DNA of 64,000 nucleotides. It comes from Rathayibacter sp. VKM Ac-2804 (GTDB taxonomy: Bacteria; Actinomycetota; Actinomycetes; Actinomycetales; Microbacteriaceae). The notes beneath the pieces were generated by a model that ran no database searches, was not told where the DNA came from, and saw only the letters and a list, made by a program, of their open reading frames with translations. Location of the stretch: assembly GCF_009866655.1 (NCBI RefSeq), contig NZ_CP047420.1, positions 310,001 to 374,000 of the forward strand, in the 5' to 3' direction. Of this stretch, positions 11,037 to 24,801 are shown piece after piece (the first letter of the stretch is position 1; every line of letters begins with the position of its first letter). The position numbers and the translations under genes were made by a program.

Positions 11037-12938
11037 CTATGACCCGCTGAGCGCCTCCTCCTCCGCCGCCACGTCCTTCTGCACCGCGAACTGCGTGCGG
11101 TGCAGCTCCTCGTAGCGGCCGGCCGCGGCGAGGAGCTCCTCGTGCGTGCCGCGCTCGACGATCGTGCCGTCCTCGATCACGAGGATCAGGTCGGCGCTGC
11201 GGATGGTGGAGAGGCGGTGGGCGATCACCATCGCGGTCCGGCCCTCGAGGGCCTCGCTGAGCGCCGCCTGCACCGCGGCCTCCGAGGTGGAGTCGAGCGC
11301 GGCCGTCGCCTCGTCGAGGATGACGACGCGCGGCTGGGCGAGCAGGAGCCGCGCGATGGTCAGCCGCTGGCGCTCGCCGCCGGACAGCCGGTAGCCGCGT
11401 TCGCCGACGAGGGTGTCCAGCTGGTCGGGCAGGGAGCGGATGAGCGGCTCGAGTCGCGCGCGGCGGAGGGCGTCCCACACCTCGTCGTCGGTCGACTCCG
11501 GGCGGGCGAGGCGCAGGTTGGACAGGATCGTCTCGTGGAAGAGGTGGCCGTCCTGCGTCACCATGCCCAGGGTGTGCCGCATCGAGGCGAAGGTGACGTC
11601 GCGGACGTCGGTACCGGCCAGGCGTACCGCGCCGCTGTCGACGTCGTAGAGGCGCGAGAGCAGCTGCGCGATCGTGGACTTGCCGGCCCCGGACGTCCCG
11701 ACGAGGGCGACGGTCTGCCCCGGCTCGATCCGGAAGGAGAGGCCGTGCAGCACCTCCTCGCCGCCGCGGGTGTCGAGGACGGCGACCTCCTCCAGGGAGG
11801 CGAGGGACACCTTGTCCGCGGACGGGTAGGCGAAGCGGACGTCGTCGAACTCGACGGACACCGGGCCCTCCGGGACGGTGCCCGCGTCGGGCTTCTCCTG
11901 GATGAGCGGCTGGAGGTCGAGCACCTCGAAGACGCGCTCGAAGCTGACGACCGCGCTCATGATCTCGACGCGCGCGTTCGCGAGGCTGGTCAGCGGCGCG
12001 TAGAGGCGGGTGAGCAGGAGCGCGAGGGTGACGACCGCGCCGGTGTCGAGCTGCCCGCCGAGCGCGAGGACGCCGCCGAGCCCGTAGACGAGCGCGAGGG
12101 CGAGCGCGGAGACGAGGGTCAGCGCGGTGACGAAGACGAGCTGCAGCATCGCGGTCCGGACCCCGATGTCGCGGACGCGGGCGGCACGGACGCGGAACTC
12201 CTCGGCCTCCTCGTCGGGCCGGCCGAACAGCTTCACCAGGGTGGCGCCGGGCGCCGAGAAGCGCTCGGTCATCTGCGTGCTCATCGCGGAGTTGTGGTCG
12301 GCGGCCTCGCGGCGGAGCGCGGCGAGGCGGCTGCCCATCCGGCGCGCGGGGATGAGGAAGATCGGCAGCATGATCACCGCGAGGACGGTGACCAGCCACG
12401 ACGTGCTGAGCATGACGATCAGCGTGAGGACCAGCGCCACGACGTTCGTGACCACCCCGGAGAGCGTGCCGCTGAAGGCCTGCTGCGCGCCGATCACGTC
12501 GTTGTTGAGCCGGCTGACGAGGGCGCCCGTGCGGGTGCGGGTGAAGAACGCGATCGGCATCTTCTGCACGTGGTTGAAGACGGCGGTGCGGAGGTCGAGG
12601 ATGACGCCCTCGCCGATCCGCGCCGAGTACCAGCGCGTGACGAGCGAGACCCCGGCGTCGGCCACGGCCACGACGGCGATGACCACGGCGAGCTGCACGA
12701 TCGTGCCCACGGCGCCGCGCGCGACGATGGTGTCGACCACCCGCCCGGCGAGCACCGGCGTCGCGACGGCGAGGAACGCCCCGACGACGCTGAGGCCGAT
12801 GAAGAGGAGGAGGCGGGCGCGGTAGGGGACCGCGAAGGTCATGATGCGGCGCACGGACTCGCGGGAGATGCCGTGCTTGCCGCTCTGGGCGGAGGAGATC
12901 CGGTAGAGGGAGCTCCAGGCGACGCCTTCCATGCTCAT
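11037..12938 (-). CDS. ABC exporter, fused permease and ATPase
   Basis: A 633-residue half-transporter of the multidrug/lipid exporter type, acting as a dimer in the membrane. A six-helix transmembrane domain (residues about 45-330) comes first. The nucleotide-binding domain follows, with Walker A GTSGAGKST, signature LSGGERQR, Walker B VVILDEAT and H-loop AHRLST. The cargo is unknown. Two in-frame ATGs (12938 and 12932) are possible starts. The first about 430 bases plus leader are duplicated, with decay, at 17557-18000. No partner gene is adjacent, so a homodimer is likely. Confidence 0.93.
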   Translation of the reverse strand: MSMEGVAWSSLYRISSAQSGKHGISRESVRRIMTFAVPYRARLLLFIGLSVVGAFLAVATPVLAGRVVDTIVARGAVGTIVQLAVVIAVVAVADAGVSLVTRWYSARIGEGVILDLRTAVFNHVQKMPIAFFTRTRTGALVSRLNNDVIGAQQAFSGTLSGVVTNVVALVLTLIVMLSTSWLVTVLAVIMLPIFLIPARRMGSRLAALRREAADHNSAMSTQMTERFSAPGATLVKLFGRPDEEAEEFRVRAARVRDIGVRTAMLQLVFVTALTLVSALALALVYGLGGVLALGGQLDTGAVVTLALLLTRLYAPLTSLANARVEIMSAVVSFERVFEVLDLQPLIQEKPDAGTVPEGPVSVEFDDVRFAYPSADKVSLASLEEVAVLDTRGGEEVLHGLSFRIEPGQTVALVGTSGAGKSTIAQLLSRLYDVDSGAVRLAGTDVRDVTFASMRHTLGMVTQDGHLFHETILSNLRLARPESTDDEVWDALRRARLEPLIRSLPDQLDTLVGERGYRLSGGERQRLTIARLLLAQPRVVILDEATAALDSTSEAAVQAALSEALEGRTAMVIAHRLSTIRSADLILVIEDGTIVERGTHEELLAAAGRYEELHRTQFAVQKDVAAEEEALSGS

Positions 12939-14815: not shown

Positions 14816-16273
14816 CTAGTCCAGAAAGTATTCGTGCACCTTTTCGTCGGTGTCCAATATGTCTTCGGAGGGCACGCCGACTTCGCGTGCGAGCTCGATC
14901 GAGCCGAGTAGCGCAACCTCGATGTCGGGGGAGAATGCCCGATCGAGCGCCGTCACATAACCGCTCATGCTCGCTTCCAGCTTCCCGATAAGAGCGTCGT
15001 GCTCGACAGCGAGTTTCTCGTCGAGCACGCGCTGGTCATCGAGGTAGCTGTTGACGAGTGCAGTCTCGCGTGCAGAGAGTGAGGATGAAGCGGCGTTGTA
15101 CATGATGGTGCCGACGGTGTTCCCGATGACGGCGCCGAGGATGGGAATGGGGATGATCGCTTGCCCCACAGCGGAAGACAGGGCGCATACGCCGACCTCA
15201 AGGCAGACGAGTTCGGCGTTCTCAATGAACGTCACTTCGGAGATCTCCCCCCGACGGAACTTGTTGGCCTGGTCCGCGACGCCGAACGCAGCGGCCGCCA
15301 TCATGTTTGCGACGGCGGCGGATGTCATGGTGAGGTTGATGAGCGAGTAGATGCTGAGGCCCCGAACCCCGCCCCTTGCTGCGCCGATAGCCGTGTCGCC
15401 CGCGATCTCCGTCCAGTCGTCGGTCGTGAGGTCCTTGAGCTTCTTTCCTTGGCGACGCTTGTCGACCAGGGAGAGTACGAAGGTTGTTCCGCCCTCGACT
15501 CCTGCGGCCACGAGGGTGGCTCTCGCGCCTTGACCGACCGTTGGCCGATTTTCCTGACGAGTCTTCTCGCGCAGGTTCGCGTCGGTGGCGCGCAGTGTTT
15601 CCTTCTCCGCCTCGAACGTGACCCCGTAGGCGTCGCGTTGTACATCCGCGTATCCCAGATGGGAGGCCTCGACAGATTCGAGTCCGATGGAGTCGGTTGA
15701 GAAGAAGGTCTGAACGCGCTTCCAGTCGGTGAGTGAGGGGCCGTCGCCGCTGCGAGACAGAAGCTTGCCGGCGTCCTCCGCAGTCATCGCGTAGAGCTTC
15801 TGAATCGTCTCGAAGTGATCGTTCGGGATCTGGTACTTTCCGCCGTTCGCGACGAAGTCGGGGTATCTGTCGAGGTGCTCGGCTATCGCGCCGAGCCCGA
15901 GTCGGCCGCCGGCCGCGACGAACTTCTGCTGGATCTGAACTCCGGCGCGCAAGAGATCCGTGGGGCCGTTGTTGTTCACCCATGCGTAGCTGGTGTCCTC
16001 GCCACGGATCGCGGTTCGGGCATTGCCGATCCCAACCTCTGCGACCTCCGCGATGAAACCGTGCATGCCCTTCACCCCTCCGCGATTCGAGGCCACGACG
16101 TCGCCGATCATCTGCAGCGCGGCATCGACATGATCGAGGGCATCGATCAGGTTCTCGTCCTGGCCGCGCAACGCGCTCAGCAGCCGCTCAGCTCTGAGGC
16201 GGTCTAGGTAGCCCAACCATGCCGCGACAGCCTGCTCCTGATTTCTCTTCGCGAGATCAGCGAGATTATTCAT
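14816..16273 (-). CDS. Large helical protein with Gly/Ala-rich hydrophobic core (module partner B)
   Basis: A 485-residue protein of unknown family. The first about 280 residues are polar and helical. Residues about 280-385 form a Gly/Ala-rich hydrophobic stretch (ARGGVRGLSIYSLINLTMTS, SSAVGQAIIPIPILGAVIG) that could insert in a membrane as a hairpin. A helical C-terminus follows. The ATG lies inside the end of the upstream gene (GATGAATAA, 8-base overlap), so the two are translationally coupled and probably form a complex. The architecture recalls two-component alpha-helical pore formers or membrane-acting defence effectors, but I see no diagnostic motif and do not assign a function. Confidence 0.7.
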   Translation of the reverse strand: MNNLADLAKRNQEQAVAAWLGYLDRLRAERLLSALRGQDENLIDALDHVDAALQMIGDVVASNRGGVKGMHGFIAEVAEVGIGNARTAIRGEDTSYAWVNNNGPTDLLRAGVQIQQKFVAAGGRLGLGAIAEHLDRYPDFVANGGKYQIPNDHFETIQKLYAMTAEDAGKLLSRSGDGPSLTDWKRVQTFFSTDSIGLESVEASHLGYADVQRDAYGVTFEAEKETLRATDANLREKTRQENRPTVGQGARATLVAAGVEGGTTFVLSLVDKRRQGKKLKDLTTDDWTEIAGDTAIGAARGGVRGLSIYSLINLTMTSAAVANMMAAAAFGVADQANKFRRGEISEVTFIENAELVCLEVGVCALSSAVGQAIIPIPILGAVIGNTVGTIMYNAASSSLSARETALVNSYLDDQRVLDEKLAVEHDALIGKLEASMSGYVTALDRAFSPDIEVALLGSIELAREVGVPSEDILDTDEKVHEYFLD

Positions 16274-17249
16274 CGACGGAGTCTTTCTCGATGCGGGTAC
16301 TCAGCAAGGCTGCGCAGGCCTTCGCCGTGTTGACGAGCGCGACGAGTTGAGCTTGCTGTTGGGCGGATGCGGCTCGAAAGTCACATCCGACGTACGGCAC
16401 AGCTTCGCTGTATACCTTCACGAGCAGTTCACGTATGGAGGCGGTGCGGTCGAGAAGGTCGCTTATCTGCACATCTATCGCCTTCACTTCGGCGACGTTC
16501 TGCATGATCGCCGCCAGCGTCTGTCGCTTCGTCTCCTGTGTCTCGAATCTCTTCCGGGCGAACAGGGCGATCGATGTGAGGAGTGCTGCTCCCGCGAGGG
16601 TCCAACCGACAGGGCCGGCGAGAGCGAGCAGGGCGCCGCCGACAGCGGTTCCTCCTCCGCCGGCTGCGATGGCGCCGCCTCCGAGCCATGCCAGAGCGGC
16701 CTGGCTCGCTGCCGCACCGGAAAGAGTCGAGATCGCGGTTCCTGTCGACGCCGTTCCGAACGTGGTGGCGACCCACATGGCCGCCGTCGGTGCGACGCTG
16801 GCGAGCGCAGCCCCAGCAGTCACTCCTGCCCCGGCGCCTGCCGCTGATCTCCGCGCAGCGGCGAGATCTCGCCGGGCGAACTCCTCGGCGTCGAGGAAGC
16901 GAGCCTTGTGCATGTCGATCTCTTCGAAGTCTGCGTTGAAGGACTTCGGGGTGTTGACGATGCTGTTCACGAGCAGCTCGACCAACCCGATGAGATCTGT
17001 CGAGCGCTCCCGCTGGCGGAGCAGGGAGAGCCCCTTGTCGCTCATCTCTGTGAACACAGCATTGTACTCGGCAGTGAGCTCCTCGTAAGAGGCGAGGTGC
17101 CGCGCTCGCAGCATGTCGACTGCCGCTTCCCTAAGGTCTCCGGTCTGCTCTTTGAGGTGCGACGAAGCGTGCCTCGCGAGTTTGCTGACGTCGTCAGCCG
17201 CTCTCACCGCGTTGTCCTTCGCCTTCCGGAAACCCGGCTGCTCAACCAT
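16266..17249 (-). CDS. Coiled-coil protein with Gly-rich membrane hairpin (module partner A)
   Basis: A 327-residue protein from ATG 17249. GTG 17261 is also possible, but AGGAAAG is better placed for the ATG. A long helical region (residues about 5-125) is followed by a strongly hydrophobic Gly/Ala block (about 130-235, including LLALAGPVGWTLAGAALLTS), then a helical C-terminus. Helix-hairpin-helix proteins of this shape include membrane-remodelling and pore-forming families. It is first in a two-gene operon with 14816-16273. The function is unknown. Confidence 0.7.
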   Translation of the reverse strand: MVEQPGFRKAKDNAVRAADDVSKLARHASSHLKEQTGDLREAAVDMLRARHLASYEELTAEYNAVFTEMSDKGLSLLRQRERSTDLIGLVELLVNSIVNTPKSFNADFEEIDMHKARFLDAEEFARRDLAAARRSAAGAGAGVTAGAALASVAPTAAMWVATTFGTASTGTAISTLSGAAASQAALAWLGGGAIAAGGGGTAVGGALLALAGPVGWTLAGAALLTSIALFARKRFETQETKRQTLAAIMQNVAEVKAIDVQISDLLDRTASIRELLVKVYSEAVPYVGCDFRAASAQQQAQLVALVNTAKACAALLSTRIEKDSVDE

Positions 17250-17556
17250 TACCAACCACACTTTCCTGACACAAATGCTGTGGTCTAGCGTAGTGAGTAC
17301 CTACGACATGCCCTCCCGGCTCGATGAGTGACCAACCGAATCTTGACCGGTCCTACCTCGCGATACCGATGGCCATCGCAACTAGGAACGGGGAGCGGCG
17401 GCAAGGATTCGGGCACGGACCGGGCCGCCGAGCAGCTAGGCCCCTGGACGGTCTCGCTCGAGTGACTTCTATGCCATAGTTCGCTGGCCGAAGCGGGAGC
17501 GCCACCTCTTGAGAGTTCCACGTCCGTCTCGCCGCGCCGATCTGCTCCTTCCCTTA
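17250..17556. other. Upstream region of the two-gene module
   Basis: No gene is supported here. A possible minus-strand -10 (TACGCT, complement of 17287-17292) lies about 40 bases before the module start. The right end meets the exporter duplication. Confidence 0.35.
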
Positions 17557-18000
17557 GCTGACGAGGGCGCCGGTGCGGGTGCGGGTGAAGAACGCGATCG
17601 GCATCTTCTGCACGTGGTTGAAGACGGCGGTGCGGAGGTCGAGGATGACCCCTTCGCCTATCCGCGCCGAGTACCAGCGCGTGACGAGCGAGACGCCGGC
17701 GTCGGCCACCGCGACGACCGCGATGACCACGGCGAGCTGCACGATCGTCCCGACCGCACCGCGGGCGACGATGGTGTCGACCACCCGCCCGGCGAGCACC
17801 GGCGTCGCGACAGCGAGGAACGCGCCGACGACGCTGAGGCCGATGAAGAGGAGGAGGCGGGCGCGGTAGGGGACCGCGAAGGTCATGATGCGGCGCACGG
17901 ACTCGCGGGACGTGCCGCGCGTGCCGGTTGTGGCGCTGGAGACCTTTTAGAGAGAGCTCCAGGCGACGCCTTCCGCGCTTGTCTGGGGGGAGATCCTTCG
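17557..18000 (-). pseudogene. Decayed 5' fragment of the ABC exporter gene
   Basis: This stretch aligns without indels to 12513-12956 at a constant offset of 5044 bases, with scattered substitutions. It covers the promoter-proximal leader and the first about 140 codons of the exporter at 11037-12938. Both candidate start codons are destroyed (CAT to CGC and to TTG on the plus strand), and a TAA has arisen in the early frame (from CTTTTA near 17944). It is a dead duplicate in the same orientation, a direct repeat bounding the 12956-17556 segment. Confidence 0.9.
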
Positions 18001-18303: not shown

Positions 18304-18969
18304 TCAGCGCAAAGAGTACTCACCGAGTTCTTCGAGCCCCTGCATCCGGCGAACTGACACAACATGATCCGCTATGTCTGGGACTCCGCCGGTGACCGCG
18401 AGTTCGACAATGGCATTAACTGGTCCTCGCGCACGTCGCCGGGCCGCGTAGTCGTAGTCAGCGATCGGCAGGAACGTATTCGAACCGCGCGGTGTCGCGG
18501 TCGGATACAGGGCGGCACCGGAGTTGATGGGCGAGAGTCGAACACGCTGCACCGCCGACTCCAGCAAACTCCTTGTGTCCACCGTCAGAACGTCTTGGAC
18601 ACTGTCCCGGTACCTGCGCGCAGTCAACAGACCGGCGAGCTTGTCCGGGTGGAGCCAGAAGAAGACCCGCTCGTTGAGGATATCCAGCCAACCCTGCACC
18701 GACACATCGATGAGCTTCGGCTCCAGGTGCGTCAAGTTGAGCGGACCCTGGTCGCGGACGACAACGTCGCCGAGCTGCGGATGCAGGATGTGAACGGACG
18801 TCGCGCGCCGCTGGTCGAGCAGCTCCGACCTCTCCTCCTCGTTCAGGTCAGACGACTCCACGATGGTCCGCGTAGGAAGGAGCCCGTGCTGTGCTATCGC
18901 TGGCCAACTGCCCGCCTCAGCCATGTGGAACAGCTGTGGATGCAGCTCGATGAGATGCTCAAGATCCAT
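18304..18969 (-). CDS. DUF7002 family protein, possible ADP-ribosyltransferase-like fold
   Basis: A 221-residue protein. It carries the DUF7002-type motifs FHMAEAGSWPAIAQHGLLPT (residues about 14-33), RVFFWLHPDKLAGLL (about 100-114) and VLTVDTRSLLE, and a late GSNTFLPIADYDY. The H-x-S/T...I-x-x-HGL and F(Y/W)F spacing resembles DarT-like or RNA 2'-phosphotransferase-like NAD-using folds; that is inference, and the family is otherwise uncharacterised. The ATG comes 3 bases after the TAA of the kinase-PurZ gene, so the two are co-translated. In this operon it may act on a nucleotide or nucleic-acid product, or serve as an effector. Confidence 0.75.
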   Translation of the reverse strand: MDLEHLIELHPQLFHMAEAGSWPAIAQHGLLPTRTIVESSDLNEEERSELLDQRRATSVHILHPQLGDVVVRDQGPLNLTHLEPKLIDVSVQGWLDILNERVFFWLHPDKLAGLLTARRYRDSVQDVLTVDTRSLLESAVQRVRLSPINSGAALYPTATPRGSNTFLPIADYDYAARRRARGPVNAIVELAVTGGVPDIADHVVSVRRMQGLEELGEYSLR

Positions 18970-18972
18970 GAG

Positions 18973-20649
18973 TTACCACTCTCTTCGGTCGATCAGGGCG
19001 CGGTTATCGAATCCTGTTGCAATCAACGACACTGGGGCGCCGCCGACCCGAGACACTTCCTCGACGAATCGGATGGTGTCGTCCGTCAGCTGGTCGAACC
19101 GGCGAGCGTGCAGGTTCTCAGCGCTGAGGTAGTCGGCGAAGGTCAACGCGATGTCTGTAGTGCCATTTAGTTCGGATGCGCGACGCAGGAGGTTCCAGTC
19201 GAACTCCGCAACCCGTCGTTTGCTGCCGCTGACGGATCCTCGCTCGGTGGCGCGCAGTCCTTCTTCGTCGAGGCCGGAGCGCTCAGCAATATCGCTCCAG
19301 TTTATCTCCGCACCCATCACACCTGACGTCGACGCGGACGTCGGCGGGTCACCGACGCGGATGGGGTACGTGCGCACAACCATGACCACTTTGCGGAGCC
19401 GGTGCGGCCCGATACCCGCCTCGGACAGACATGCGGCAGTTGTCGTGTCCCGGCTAGTCACCCAGGGGTAGAAGCCATGGAACAGGCTCAGAAGTGTGCC
19501 CTGCGTCCCTTCAAGCATTACTTTCTTGCCGTCGCGGAACGCTGCCTCGATGATGTCTGCGGTCGAACGGACATAAGCGGTGAGTTCCGTGACGTCCCTG
19601 GCCAGCCGAACGTTCGGGCTAGCACCCCCATGCCGTCCCATGATGCGACGTGCCGCGGCTGCGCCTCCGCCTTTTCCGGTCGACGCGATGGTTCTGACCA
19701 GCTCGGCTTCCTTCTCGAGGTCCTCGGGTTCAATAATCATCGCCTGCGGGTCGATCGACAGCCGCTCGGAGTCGACGGAACAAGCCGCGATTTCGTCCAT
19801 CAGGACCGTGAGGTCCAGGGTCGCACCGGGCCCAATGACAAGCTTGGCGCTCGGGTTCGCGAGGGTGCCTGAGGGCAGCAGCCGGTGAGTGTACGGCGGC
19901 GTCGTGGGGACCTTGTGTCCAGCGTTCGGGCCGCCGACTCGCATCAGCAGGTCGTACTCGTTTGCGAGATGGTAGGCGATGTTGCCCTTCCCTTCGCTGC
20001 CGTACTGACCGCCGATGAAGACATCGACCAGTCGGTCTGCAAGCGAGGGAAAGAGACTCAACGCCGCAGTCGCTCGCGCGAGGACGTCTAGCTCGGAGCA
20101 CCGGTAGGTGTCAATGGTGATATCCGCGTCGCTTGTGAGGGTGACGACCTTCGCTTCGGTGGGGTCTTCGGCAACGTCCTGATAGCTCCTGAGTTCGGTG
20201 AAGCCGCTGTCGTGACGGTTGCGGTACCGCTTCGTGAGCACCGATTCCGGAGCGTGCACGTGAATGTGGGTTACGGCCGCGGGGAAGGCGTCTCGCAACG
20301 CGTCAACCTGCCCGAGGGTGCGAACAGCATCGACGATGAGAAGTTCGCCTCGCGCTCCTCCTTCACCTACGAACTTCGCGACCTGGTCCGCGACCCACTG
20401 CTCGTCGGTGTCGCGGTCAAGCTGCTCACCGAACTTCTGCATCGCGCGACGTTCGGGTTCCAGGGCAATTCCCAGGCCCGCTGCCGCATCTGCCATCAAG
20501 TCCTGCGTTCGGATATGAACGGCGTTGAACTTCGCCGCCAGGCTGCGAGCCAGGGTTGTCTTGCCAGATCCGACCGGCCCGCTCAGGGCAACGATGCGTG
20601 GTTTGGCCTGGACGTCGCCGTCGTCCGGGTCGGGAAGCATTGCACTCAT
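18973..20649 (-). CDS. P-loop kinase fused to PurZ-like adenylosuccinate synthetase
   Basis: A 558-residue fusion; ATG 20649 follows AGGGGAT. Residues about 18-200 are a P-loop nucleotide-kinase-like domain (Walker A GPVGSGKT at 24-31; IVDAVRTLGQVDALRD at 105-120, like DGIR motifs of dNMP and dephospho-CoA kinases). Residues about 206-558 are an adenylosuccinate synthetase of only about 350 residues, against about 430 for bacterial PurA. The loop reads GGQYGSEGKGN (213-223): Ser218 replaces the PurA catalytic Asp (Asp13 in E. coli), as in phage PurZ, which joins Asp to dGMP to make the 2-aminoadenine precursor. NAGHK (242-246), STGKGGG, LEGTQGTLLSLF and TSRDTT are kept. The GC content is lower than that of core genes. 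Confidence 0.88.
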   Translation of the reverse strand: MSAMLPDPDDGDVQAKPRIVALSGPVGSGKTTLARSLAAKFNAVHIRTQDLMADAAAGLGIALEPERRAMQKFGEQLDRDTDEQWVADQVAKFVGEGGARGELLIVDAVRTLGQVDALRDAFPAAVTHIHVHAPESVLTKRYRNRHDSGFTELRSYQDVAEDPTEAKVVTLTSDADITIDTYRCSELDVLARATAALSLFPSLADRLVDVFIGGQYGSEGKGNIAYHLANEYDLLMRVGGPNAGHKVPTTPPYTHRLLPSGTLANPSAKLVIGPGATLDLTVLMDEIAACSVDSERLSIDPQAMIIEPEDLEKEAELVRTIASTGKGGGAAAARRIMGRHGGASPNVRLARDVTELTAYVRSTADIIEAAFRDGKKVMLEGTQGTLLSLFHGFYPWVTSRDTTTAACLSEAGIGPHRLRKVVMVVRTYPIRVGDPPTSASTSGVMGAEINWSDIAERSGLDEEGLRATERGSVSGSKRRVAEFDWNLLRRASELNGTTDIALTFADYLSAENLHARRFDQLTDDTIRFVEEVSRVGGAPVSLIATGFDNRALIDRREW

Positions 20650-20827
20650 ACCAAATCCCCTAGCGTTCCGGCGGAAATGCTCAGTTTCAGCGAGGGGCTG
20701 GGCGTGGCATTGCTCGCGGCTTGCAGCGGATCTCTCCGTAATGCCATCGCACACACAAAGGTGTTAGTCCACTGACGTTCGTCCACGGACTCACATTAGA
20801 GGGAATTGAGGACGCGTCGGCAAGTGT

Positions 20828-21349
20828 TCAGTCGAGAAAAAGAGGCGGCTGGTCGAGGAGGACGCGGCGGACATCTGGCGCCACATACGACGGCGGCTTG
20901 AGCACCTTGCCGTCCTCCCGGAGTACCGGTCCGCCGTCGGGCCCAAGTTTGCTCATGTTCGCACGGTGCACCTCGCGGAGGACAGCGTCAAGATCGATGC
21001 CGTACGTCAGCGCTGCACCGTACGCGACGTACACGATGTCTCCGAGTGCGTCAGCTACAGCAACGACGTCCTGGCGGGCAACGGCGTCCTTGAACTCTTC
21101 GAATTCCTCTCGAAGCAGCTCCACGCGCAGCGCACCGAGCTGCGTGTCGACTTGCTGCTGAGGGGTGCGTTCCAGGGGCAGGTCGAAGGACATATGAAAC
21201 TCGGCGACAGACTGCATCGCGCGGCTCACGCCGTTGCTCCGCTTCGGGCGGCGGGTGAGAAGCTTCGGCGGGAGGCCGAGATCGAACTCGAGCTGCTTCG
21301 TCGACGCTGAAACGTCAACTTCCGCGACGAGTTCGATTGCCAATCCCAT
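20828..21349 (-). CDS. MazG-like nucleotide pyrophosphohydrolase
   Basis: A 173-residue all-alpha NTP pyrophosphatase. The metal motif EEFEE (81-85) is followed by DALGD (100-104), an ExxE...D/ExxD arrangement. The tail SKLGPDGGPVLREDGKVLK is typical of this MazG/HisE-like subfamily. Such enzymes cut (d)NTP to (d)NMP and PPi. In Z-genome phages a MazG homologue (MazZ) turns dGTP into dGMP for PurZ, so position and order match that pathway here. ATG 21349 was chosen (MGLAI); the upstream extension has no MazG similarity. 178 bases separate it from the kinase-PurZ start, so a shared promoter or a second promoter is possible. Confidence 0.88.
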   Translation of the reverse strand: MGLAIELVAEVDVSASTKQLEFDLGLPPKLLTRRPKRSNGVSRAMQSVAEFHMSFDLPLERTPQQQVDTQLGALRVELLREEFEEFKDAVARQDVVAVADALGDIVYVAYGAALTYGIDLDAVLREVHRANMSKLGPDGGPVLREDGKVLKPPSYVAPDVRRVLLDQPPLFLD

Positions 21350-22004: not shown

Positions 22005-24801
22005 ATGCCTCGCTCTGCCCGCCTGTTCTCCCTCGCCCTCTCGGCGCTTCTGGTCGGCGGCATGGTCGCCGTCGCGCCGAGCGCCGTGGCTGAGACGGCC
22101 GCCCCGCTCAACTCTTCTATCGAGCCGGCGCCGCACGATCGCCCACCCGTCAAGACGCCAGCCGGCCCGAAGGTGCATGGTCGCCGTCGCGTCGAGCGCC
22201 GTGTCCGAGACCGCCGCCCCGCTCAACTCGTCCATTGAGCCGGCGCCGCACGATCGCCCGCCGGTCAAGACGTCTAACGGCCCGAAGGCGAACTCGGAGT
22301 CGCCTCAGGCTCGAGTCGCCGCCGGCCCTCCGGTGAACGACAGCATGGCCTCGGCGACCGTGATCCCGGCACTCCCGTTCGTCACCTCCAGCGCTCCTTA
22401 CTACGGCGCCACGCTCGAGGCGAACGAACTGACGTCCTGTCGGACGACCGACCCCGACCACAGCGACTACTACTCCGACGTCACCGAGTCCGTGTGGTTC
22501 CGCTACACCGCGACGGCCCGACAGACGCTGACCCTTCAGGGCCACGTCGGCGACAAATACTCGGCGGTCAACGCCTACCCGGCTGGCGAGCTCGCCGAGC
22601 TCAACCGCGTCGCCTGCGTGGAGACCGAGTTCCGCGAGACCAACTATCTGCAGGTCGAGACCGGGAAGACCTACTACTTCCAGGTCGGTGTCGCCTTCGG
22701 CTGGTACTCGGGAGACGACGACCCCGCCACCCCGAGCGACCTCGTCCACCTGAGCATCACCGCGAGCCCTCCTGTCGCCGGGACCACCGTCGGTTCCGCG
22801 ACGGCCATCGCTTCGTTGCCCGCGTCCATCTCAGCCTCGAACGCTCAAGTCGATTCGAACTGGTACACCCCCTACGACTCCTGCTCGAAGATCGAAGTGA
22901 TGAGCGGCAGCGTCTGGTACCGCTATCGGGCGCCGGTGACTCAGAACGTGCAGGTCGACCTGCGACAGAGCGAGCGCGGGCAGGCCTTCATCGTCTACAG
23001 CTCCGACGGCGCGAATCCCACGTATGTGGAGACCTGCCCCCGGCCCAACGGCGAGTCGGACTACAACGGCACTCCGGCTCTGGATCACTTCACCGCGGAG
23101 GCGAACCGGACGTACTTCATCCAGGTCGCGAGCAGCCATTCGAGCGGCAGCGCATACACGTTGAAGCTCGCGGCCGTTTTCGGAGTTTTCGCGACCGCCG
23201 TTCCCATCATCACCGGCACGGCAGCGGTCGGGGGAGAACTGACGGTCGAGGCGCCGGCGTGGACGCCCGAGCCCAGCTACTACCAGTACCAGTGGTTCCG
23301 CAACGGCACCCGCATCGATTCCGCGTACAACGCGACCTATCGGCCGACGGCCGAGGATGCGGGCACCACGCTCACCGCCTCGGTCACGGGCGGCCGCACC
23401 GGCTACGTCTCCGCGACGACCACGAGCGCCCCGGTCACCATCGCCGCGCCGCTTCTCACCCTCATGCCCACCCCGACGGTGTCGGGCACCACCACCGTGG
23501 GCTCGACGCTCACCGCGAACCCGGGTACCTGGGATGCCGGTGTCACCCTGAGCTACCAGTGGAAGAAGAACAACGGCACCTCCATCTCGGGCGCAACGGC
23601 GAAGACGTACGTCCTCCGACCTGCCGACGCCGGCGCGACGCTGACCGTCTCGGTGACGGGTACCAAGTCGGGCTACTCCCCGGCGACGAAGACCAGTGCC
23701 ACCACCGCGATCATCACGAACACGGCTGCGATCACCGGTCCGACCCCGACGATCACAGGGACCGCGACGGTCGGGCAGAAGCTGACCGCCGTCGCGGGGA
23801 CGTGGAGCCCCGCTCCCGTCACCCTCGCGTACCAGTGGAAGCGCGCGGGCGTCGCCATCACTGGGGCGACCGCCTCGACCTACACTCTGGTCGCCGCGGA
23901 CGCCGGCGCAGCGGTGACCGTCTCCGTGACCGGCACCAAGACCGGCTACGCGAGTACGACGAAGACGAGCGCGGCAATCACCGTCAAGGCTGCTCTCCAG
24001 ACGCTGATGCCGACGCCGACCATCACCGAGACCAAGACCGTCGGCGCGACGCTCACCGCCGCAACGGGCACCTGGGACGCGGGGACGACGCTCACCTATC
24101 AGTGGAAGAAGAACGGCGGCGCGTACATCACCGGCGCGACCGCGAAGACCTACGTCCTCAAGGGCAGTGACGCCGGCGCGACCCTCACCGTCTCCGTGAC
24201 GTCGACCAAGCCGGGCTATTCACCCGCGACCAAGACCAGCGCCACCACGGCCGCGATCGCCACGGGCACGCTGACGTCGGCGACTCCGACCATCACGGGC
24301 ACGGCGGCCGCCGGTCAGACGCTCACCGCAGCCCCGGGGGCGTGGGGCCCGAGCCCCGTGACCTACGCCTACCAGTGGAAGCGCGGCACGACCGTGATCT
24401 CCGGCGCGACCGGAGCGACGTACACGGCCACCGCCTCCGACGTCGGCGCGAGCCTGACCGTCACCGTCACCGGATCCAAGACCGGGTACACGAGCGTGAC
24501 GAAGTCCAGCGCGGCGAAGGTGATCGCCAAGGGCATTCTCACTGCGCCGACCCCGACCGTCACGGGTACGAAAAAGGTCTGCTCTACCCTGACGGCCGTC
24601 GGCGGCACCTGGGGCCCGGCTCCTGTCTCGCTGAGCTACCAGTGGTACCGCTCGGGCACGCTGATCAGTGGCGCGACTACAGGTGCGTACAAGCTGGTCA
24701 CTGCTGACAAGGGGAAGACCATCACCGTGAAGGTGACCGGGACGAAGACGGGCTACACCACCACCGCGAAGACGAGTGCGGCGACGGCGGCCATCGGCTG
24801 A
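22005..24801 (+). pseudogene. Secreted Ig-repeat protein, frame broken by a 115-bp duplication
   Basis: ATG 22005 opens a signal peptide (MPRSARLFSLALSALLVGG) that runs out of frame at 22238. The large downstream frame (22177-24801, 874 residues) carries the body: two PPC-like beta domains (about 22330-23180) and six Ig-like repeats of about 85 residues (motifs YQWKK/YQWKR, SVTGTKTGY, TKTSA) to the end. The break is a 115-bp direct duplication (22062 against 22177); removing one copy joins signal and body. GTG/ATG use at 22177 alone would give a protein without an export signal. No LPXTG or anchor is seen. Probably a surface or secreted adhesin-like protein. Confidence 0.85.
22062..22291 (+). 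repeat. 115-bp imperfect tandem duplication
   Basis: Copies 22062-22176 and 22177-22291 both begin atggtcgccgtcgcg and include gccccgctcaactc and gagccggcgccgcacgatcg. They differ at roughly one base in ten. The 115-bp period is not a multiple of three. Confidence 0.9.

Follow-up and report, generated by a model that had tools for sequence, protein, structure and literature searches.

What purpose does a PurZ-like enzyme serve on the chromosome of Rathayibacter sp. VKM Ac-2804, where it is joined to a kinase and followed by a gene encoding a DUF7002 protein? The question is raised by a window of 64,000 nucleotides (contig NZ_CP047420.1, positions 310,001 to 374,000), in which the original prediction had proposed a three-gene operon resembling the MazZ-PurZ pathway of phages. 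All three open reading frames (ORFs) are present on the minus strand (Table 1), and their order, with a MazG-like gene preceding the kinase-PurZ fusion and the DUF7002 gene starting 3 bases after the stop of the latter, is confirmed. Our analysis leads to a proposal, to which we ascribe about even chances as a whole, of a mobile cellular cassette in which PurZ and the kinase would make a nucleotide of 2-aminoadenine (Z) and which, together with a DarT-like DUF7002 protein, would serve in phage defence.

The proposed fusion of a P-loop kinase to a PurZ-like domain is borne out by family assignments. Its N-terminal part, which resembles nucleoside monophosphate (NMP) kinases, matches AAA_33, AAA_17 and AAA_18 of Pfam above their cut-offs and the deoxynucleoside monophosphate kinase family phrog_139 with an E-value of 3.1e-10, and 75 of the 78 long ORFs in the fusion family show a broad P-loop pattern. 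The C-terminal part falls into the PurA and PurZ families and matches phrog_1211 with an E-value of 6e-64. For comparison we have used 79 loci originating from the best 80 of 332 fusion relatives in a genome scan, to which all counts over loci refer, and relatives of a separate PurZ-like protein encoded at locus L114 (7065 of 8000 candidates scored, 120 of these relatives among the matches listed). In two trees of the domain comprising residues 206-558, the fusion groups with PurZ and not with PurA, in line with what had been predicted. The first tree, of 65 rows, contains the window, 24 of the 79 loci and 12 of 121 separate PurZ-like proteins, with the archaeal PurA locus L226 left out by a motif filter. 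One side of a branch with support of 100/99 holds 25 fusions, 14 PurZ proteins from phages or viral contigs and the 12 separate bacterial PurZ-like proteins, the other side 12 canonical PurA proteins, one archaeal PurA and one PurA of a jumbo phage, and the fusions form a single group (100/99). The same split is repeated in a tree of 90 rows (100/99), where phiVC8 and BpsS140 raised long-branch warnings. Both trees place the fusion of the window within the actinobacterial cassettes, together with the chromosomal locus L004 (100/99).

The grouping is accompanied by a change in the active site. The position of the catalytic Asp13 of PurA, where all 12 canonical PurA rows have Asp, is occupied by Ser in 78 of the 79 loci, with the gene of L021 being split and left unscored, and in 118 of the 120 fusion proteins that were listed, the other two lacking the motif. 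Separate PurZ-like proteins carry Ser in 116 and Gly in 5 of 121 cases. The genome scan employed the patterns QYGSEGKG and VGGPNAGH, and eight loci were picked up independently of the Ser pattern because Glu or Ala stands in place of Gln. According to an excerpt of PMC12884076, Ser is found in 100% of 147 phage PurZ proteins and Asp in 99% of PurA. Residues of the base pocket of S-2L PurZ, as described in an excerpt of PMC8342488, are mostly kept in the fusions, including Ser at the position of S131 in 25 of 25 proteins, where 11 of 12 canonical PurA proteins contain Thr. The donor-site residue is Asp in all 25 fusions. Canonical PurA and the PurZ of Wayne share this residue, whereas S-2L and phiVC8 contain Gln or Asn. 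The tree grouping and the replacement of Asp by Ser rule out a plain PurA paralogue, and we consider it likely that the fusion has PurZ-type activity.

The 79 loci are found in Actinomycetota, Acidobacteriota, Planctomycetota, Verrucomicrobiota, Chloroflexota, Pseudomonadota, Bacteroidota, Thermoplasmatota and others. In 78 of them DUF7002 is present, and it directly follows the fusion in 69 as judged by script and, from the coordinates, also in L054, L060 and L061, where a second kinase-like ORF had misled the script. In these three loci and in L148, this extra ORF, which matches part of the fusion, is read as a separate kinase gene beside the cassette. Elsewhere MazG intervenes (L024, L026 and L051), two genes lie between (L059), DUF7002 is convergent (L019) or distant (L008), and the sole locus without it, L076, stops 47 bases past the fusion match. 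The presence of the fusion is sporadic, with a full version in 3 of 299 genomes of the family of the window and in 1 of 6 of its genus. Since 332 stretches of genomes encode fusion relatives and all three genes seem to be constrained by purifying selection, as suggested by values of omega between 0.08 and 0.15 against the nearest relative L103 (MazG 0.079, fusion 0.154, DUF7002 0.116), the cassette is far from a chance arrangement. Several loci show additional features. An archaeal contig (L039, 5986-11351) contains two fusion genes on opposite strands, the second with the gene F2 described below, a deoxynucleoside kinase family directly follows DUF7002 in L016, L022 and L028 (PF01712 in the member scanned), and nine of the 79 loci, archaeal and Chloroflexota as judged by title (L027, L029, L031, L033, L040, L041, L042, L056 and L058) contain beside the cassette an uncharacterized family with a median length of 258 amino acids and no Pfam match in the one member scanned.

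The protein encoded by the constant partner gene matches Pfam DUF7002 with an E-value of 1.4e-62. Its predicted ADP-ribosyltransferase (ART) fold is closest to DarT, with DarT1 as best match among the families listed, and in one profile alignment its invariant residues E189 and R55 align on the Glu and the Arg-rich stretch of DarT. This predicted fold supports the suggestion that DUF7002 would act as effector or modifier, and we regard an ART activity of the protein as likely.

A component missing from the three-gene set of the original prediction is F2, the usual direct predecessor of the fusion, which encodes a protein of about 460 amino acids and occupies this place in 56 of 79 loci, whereas matches anywhere, fragments included, are found in 59. 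F2 consists of an IrrE-like M78 protease, with a HExxH motif that is invariant in 51 aligned sequences, and a macrodomain. The latter is nearest to BT1257 of B. thetaiotaomicron (2fg1, E 4.1e-47; 2afc, E 1.8e-47) and to the S. coelicolor macrodomain 5e3b (E 2.7e-45), which we take to be SCO6735, followed by ALC1, TARG1 and DarG. SCO6735 strips the thymidine-linked ADP-ribose attached by DarT in a reaction that requires Gln85, as stated in an excerpt of PMC9411070. An invariant Gln of F2, Q376 within a MVAQxGYG stretch, would be its equivalent judging from the sequence. In the window, the DarG-class macrodomain next door is lost, and a search of the whole genome for F2, run without a positive control, gave no match. 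Between MazG and the fusion, hmmsearch with the F2 profile detects a weak scrap covering profile residues 5-32 (E 7.6e-4, 12.7 bits), and a C-terminal scrap (profile residues 396-445, E 5.5e-7) is found at the same place in the relative L103. Because of these scraps, we read the form in the window as a deletion derivative of the order MazG-F2-fusion-DUF7002 observed in L004, L006 and L007. The claim of an operon thus stands with respect to gene order and the 3-base spacing, whereas a single three-gene transcript is only putative because the 178-bp gap between MazG and the ATG of the fusion apparently holds the gene remnant.

The first gene does not bear out the MazZ role that had been assigned to it. 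Its product matches PRA-PH with 69 bits and MazG with 21.9 bits, just under the cut-off of 22, and is related to phrog_671 and DR2231. It shares with S-2L MazZ and DR2231 the superfamily of MazG-like NTP pyrophosphohydrolases, whereas S-2L MazZ belongs to PF04447, and the best PHROGs of the two differ; the label MazZ was consequently dropped. MazG is found in only 14 of 79 loci, all within the 17 counted as actinobacterial by title, so that the pairing of fusion and DUF7002 is the general part of the predicted neighbourhood and the three genes together are its actinobacterial form.

The cassette is mobile. Eight plasmid records carry the fusion over 80% of its length, and DUF7002 follows it on all six plasmids read. 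Phage records contain no fusion covering 80% of the query. Among the best 80 of 164 fusion relatives in viral contigs, nine matches (L146-L154) extend over nearly the whole fusion, with L155 being cut by the end of the contig, and in the 90-row tree such viral-contig genes are scattered among cassettes. L104 and L007 denote one locus, and L152 is identical in its DNA to the chromosomal locus L074; neither pair is counted twice as independent support. DUF7002 is found in L146, L148 and L152, with F2 also in L146 and L152, and the fusions of L149, L150 and L151 (with L153 as near-copy of the last) stand without DUF7002 beside genes for a PolA-type DNA polymerase, helicase or primase. In L147 and L154, likewise without DUF7002, the neighbours are nucleoside deoxyribosyltransferase (NDT) and MazG-like fusions. 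By analogy, these viral contexts resemble the gene sets of Z-phages and support a PurZ activity, with Z DNA itself unproven. Cellular variants display other partners. Seven rhizobial-type loci contain an HD deoxynucleoside monophosphate (dNMP) phosphatase family and an uncharacterized gene but no F2, and the same phosphatase family also occurs with separate bacterial PurZ. On a conjugative Sinorhizobium plasmid (L114, 4299-7057), a separate PurZ-like gene with Ser at the catalytic site is accompanied by a relative of this phosphatase and by a Dcd-like protein, which remains below the Pfam cut-off and displays, by eye, a hydrophobic C-terminal stretch. These enzymes parallel the varied pool-tuning enzymes of Z-phages. 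The candidate F7 was rejected as DatZ proper, since the one member scanned matches the dNMP phosphatase family phrog_318 with 213.7 bits and the DatZ family with 31 bits. A Dcd-like gene (phrog_1663) also adjoins the cassette of L104 (6457-14644), where SIR2-like and Mrr-like genes were noted by eye.

How could these components work together? The PurZ domain would join aspartate to a guanine mononucleotide, most probably dGMP, giving a succino-2-aminoadenine nucleotide, and the fused NMP-kinase-like domain would help a host lyase and nucleoside diphosphate kinase to carry this product to the Z nucleotide. MazG in the window, and the HD dNMP phosphatase or Dcd-like protein in other variants, might tune the pools of dGTP and dATP. 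DUF7002 would act as a DarT-like, NAD-dependent ART on a base with a guanine-like 2-amino/N3 edge, in Z nucleotides or in Z-containing DNA, although we view the assignment of Z as its target as doubtful. Where the cassette is complete, F2 would remove ADP-ribose with its macrodomain and sense or regulate with its IrrE-type protease half. Equally tentative is the idea of Z as a weapon, where it would enter the fast-replicating DNA of a phage to be ADP-ribosylated by DUF7002 at the 2-amino group, on the minor-groove edge by which DarT1 recognizes guanine, while F2 shields the host. The cassette as a whole would most likely defend against phage. Among defence, signalling and a natural product, the options initially offered for the locus, defence fits the context best, and we lean moderately towards such a role. 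Genes of this type, including AAA with UvrD, AbiJ, AbiE or SIR2, are among the neighbours on three of the six plasmids read, further accompanied by RelA/SpoT or, together with SIR2 and AbiE, by DUF87 and SbcCD, and type I restriction-modification genes are found in 10 of 79 loci.

Several observations weigh against this proposal. The defence-neighbour counts stand without a control set or baseline, and nothing beyond a UvrD/nuclease pair, an HNH endonuclease and a transposase is seen on the other three plasmids. The fusion scores below the cut-offs of both the PurZ model NF038379 (197 versus 300 bits) and the archaeal-type PurA model NF003295 (274 versus 368 bits), the fusion rows shown lack Arg at the position of R146 in S-2L, which may reflect a misalignment, and the MazZ label was lost. 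The likeness of DUF7002 to DarT1 amounts to 11% identity and an hhalign probability of 66% (16% in global mode), and in Pfam the protein matches only DUF7002 itself at E-values up to 1, and not DarT (PF14487). Within the class, DUF7002 occurs in 8 of 394 genomes, including that of the window, and in six of the seven others (all except G603) that were inspected no fusion was seen; four of these loci are clear orphans, including two of the same genus, and two lie at contig ends, and DUF7002 was thus dropped as strict marker of the cassette. Moreover, 20 of 79 loci are devoid of any F2, although two of these have less than 1.5 kb before the fusion. Since F2 is absent from these loci and from the window, it is improbable that DUF7002 acts on DNA as an unrestrained toxin, unless it is controlled from elsewhere. 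Finally, the enzyme activities of the cassette are predictions from sequence.

The pairing of an ART with a DarG-class macrodomain is that of DarTG, which guards against phages according to the parts of the literature consulted, and would be explained if the cassette were a toxin-antitoxin system of this type, whose ART hits ordinary nucleic acid with F2 as antitoxin, while the kinase-PurZ protein senses phage-altered nucleotide pools or regulates in response to them. We judge this unlikely: 23 of 79 loci lack F2 next to the fusion and it was not found in the genome of the window, where the other genes seem to be kept by selection, and the near-constant partner of kinase-PurZ is DUF7002 and not F2. 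A simple DarTG label was dropped as F2 is often missing. An arrangement of synthase and receptor-effector is known from defence, and the macrodomain and the protease with its conserved HExxH residing in one protein would suit a signalling pathway in which the fusion and the ART make an ADP-ribosylated purine, the macrodomain binds it and the M78 protease acts as effector. Yet this macrodomain is closest to catalytic hydrolases and keeps the invariant Gln equated above with Gln85 from the sequence, and variants without F2 would require another effector, which makes signalling quite improbable. No better are the chances that the cassette serves metabolism or house-cleaning, as another adenylosuccinate synthetase or a salvage route without a role in conflict. 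MazG and the fusion do have homologues in nucleotide metabolism, and the host encodes an ordinary PurA elsewhere, which would allow for a specialised paralogue, but Ser in place of Asp, the grouping with PurZ, the sporadic presence, the carriage on plasmids and viral contigs and the ART and macrodomain partners all speak against it. That the locus is the leftover of a Z-genome phage is hardly credible, for although viral contigs do hold fusion genes beside replication genes, neither a phage family nor DpoZ was found among the 9 flanking proteins scanned (part of the flanks, with DatZ not searched for), the fusion groups with a chromosomal locus among actinobacterial cassettes and its selection looks purifying.

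The proposed defence cassette with its PurZ and ART components shares features with several known systems. It has in common with phage PurZ and PurZ0 (S-2L, phiVC8, Wayne) the fold by homology, the Ser, most pocket residues, the joint grouping apart from PurA and viral copies beside polymerase or nucleotide enzymes, and differs in that the fusion carries a kinase, is cellular and is paired with a predicted ART. With DarTG1/NADAR and DarTG2 it shares the DarT-like predicted ART and, where F2 is present, a macrodomain that falls into the TARG1/ALC1/DarG class, whereas DUF7002 is outside Pfam DarT, a kinase-PurZ gene is found alongside and the macrodomain is of the SCO6735 type, joined to a protease of the IrrE type and missing from many loci. 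F2, for which the hydrolases SCO6735 and BT1257 are the nearest solved relatives, differs from these by its added M78 domain and its place in a cassette, and from the metalloproteases IrrE/PprI and CapP, with which it shares the M78 domain with HExxH, by the junction to a macrodomain. In PADLOC, DUF7002 and MazG are unmatched and the matches of the fusion span the kinase part alone. The cassette thus appears as a hybrid of two known chemistries that we could not file under either.

Table 1. Coordinates of features of the cassette in the window.
Feature	Position	Strand	Remarks
MazG-like (PRA-PH) gene	20828..21349	-	ATG 21349, stop 20828, 173 aa
Kinase-PurZ fusion gene	18973..20649	-	558 aa from ATG 20649
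DUF7002 gene	18304..18969	-	221 aa, ATG 18969; predicted DarT-like ADP-ribosyltransferase
N-terminal P-loop NMP-kinase-like domain	20065..20598	-	residues ~18-195; P-loop SGPVGSGKT
C-terminal PurZ-type domain	18976..20034	-	residues ~206-558
Ser218 codon (GGQYGSEGKG)	19996..19998	-	PurA catalytic Asp13 site
Probable N-terminal remnant of lost M78-macrodomain gene F2	20703..20786	-	weak F2-profile match

A longer ORF of the fusion, called mechanically, opens at GTG 20754 and encodes 593 amino acids. Aligned homologues begin near the listed ATG, which is preceded by AGGGGA as plausible ribosome-binding site. The G+C content of the cassette is 62.5%, compared to 70.8% of the whole window. A similarly low value (62.6%) is found for two overlapping minus-strand ORFs of 485 and 331 amino acids at 14816-17261, which have no Pfam match at an E-value of 0.01 and perhaps belong to the island of the cassette. 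A direct repeat of 300 nucleotides with 95% identity (12513-12812 and 17557-17856) reveals that the ABC-transporter gene at 11037-12938 has a truncated copy just downstream of the cassette, perhaps a scar of insertion or recombination. The region beside the cassette at 22060-24801 is rich in repeats, with six spaced by about 270 bases. Far from the window, a long open frame of the same genome also includes a DarT domain of Pfam (G000:C1:2559924-2560481).

In the open-access literature, with subscription papers and preprints outside the search, we have not found the combination of PurZ with an ADP-ribosyltransferase described; the matches listed included known Z-phage papers and one on an adenylosuccinate lyase beside PabI. 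The excerpt of PMC12884076 regards PurZ as an enzyme of phages and counts four relatives from archaea. In our case, a PurZ-type enzyme forms the core of a cellular cassette distributed across bacteria and archaea and is tied to predicted ADP-ribosylation. If the proposed activities are true, cells would own a Z-nucleotide pathway, probably for immunity, and DUF7002 would gain a function.

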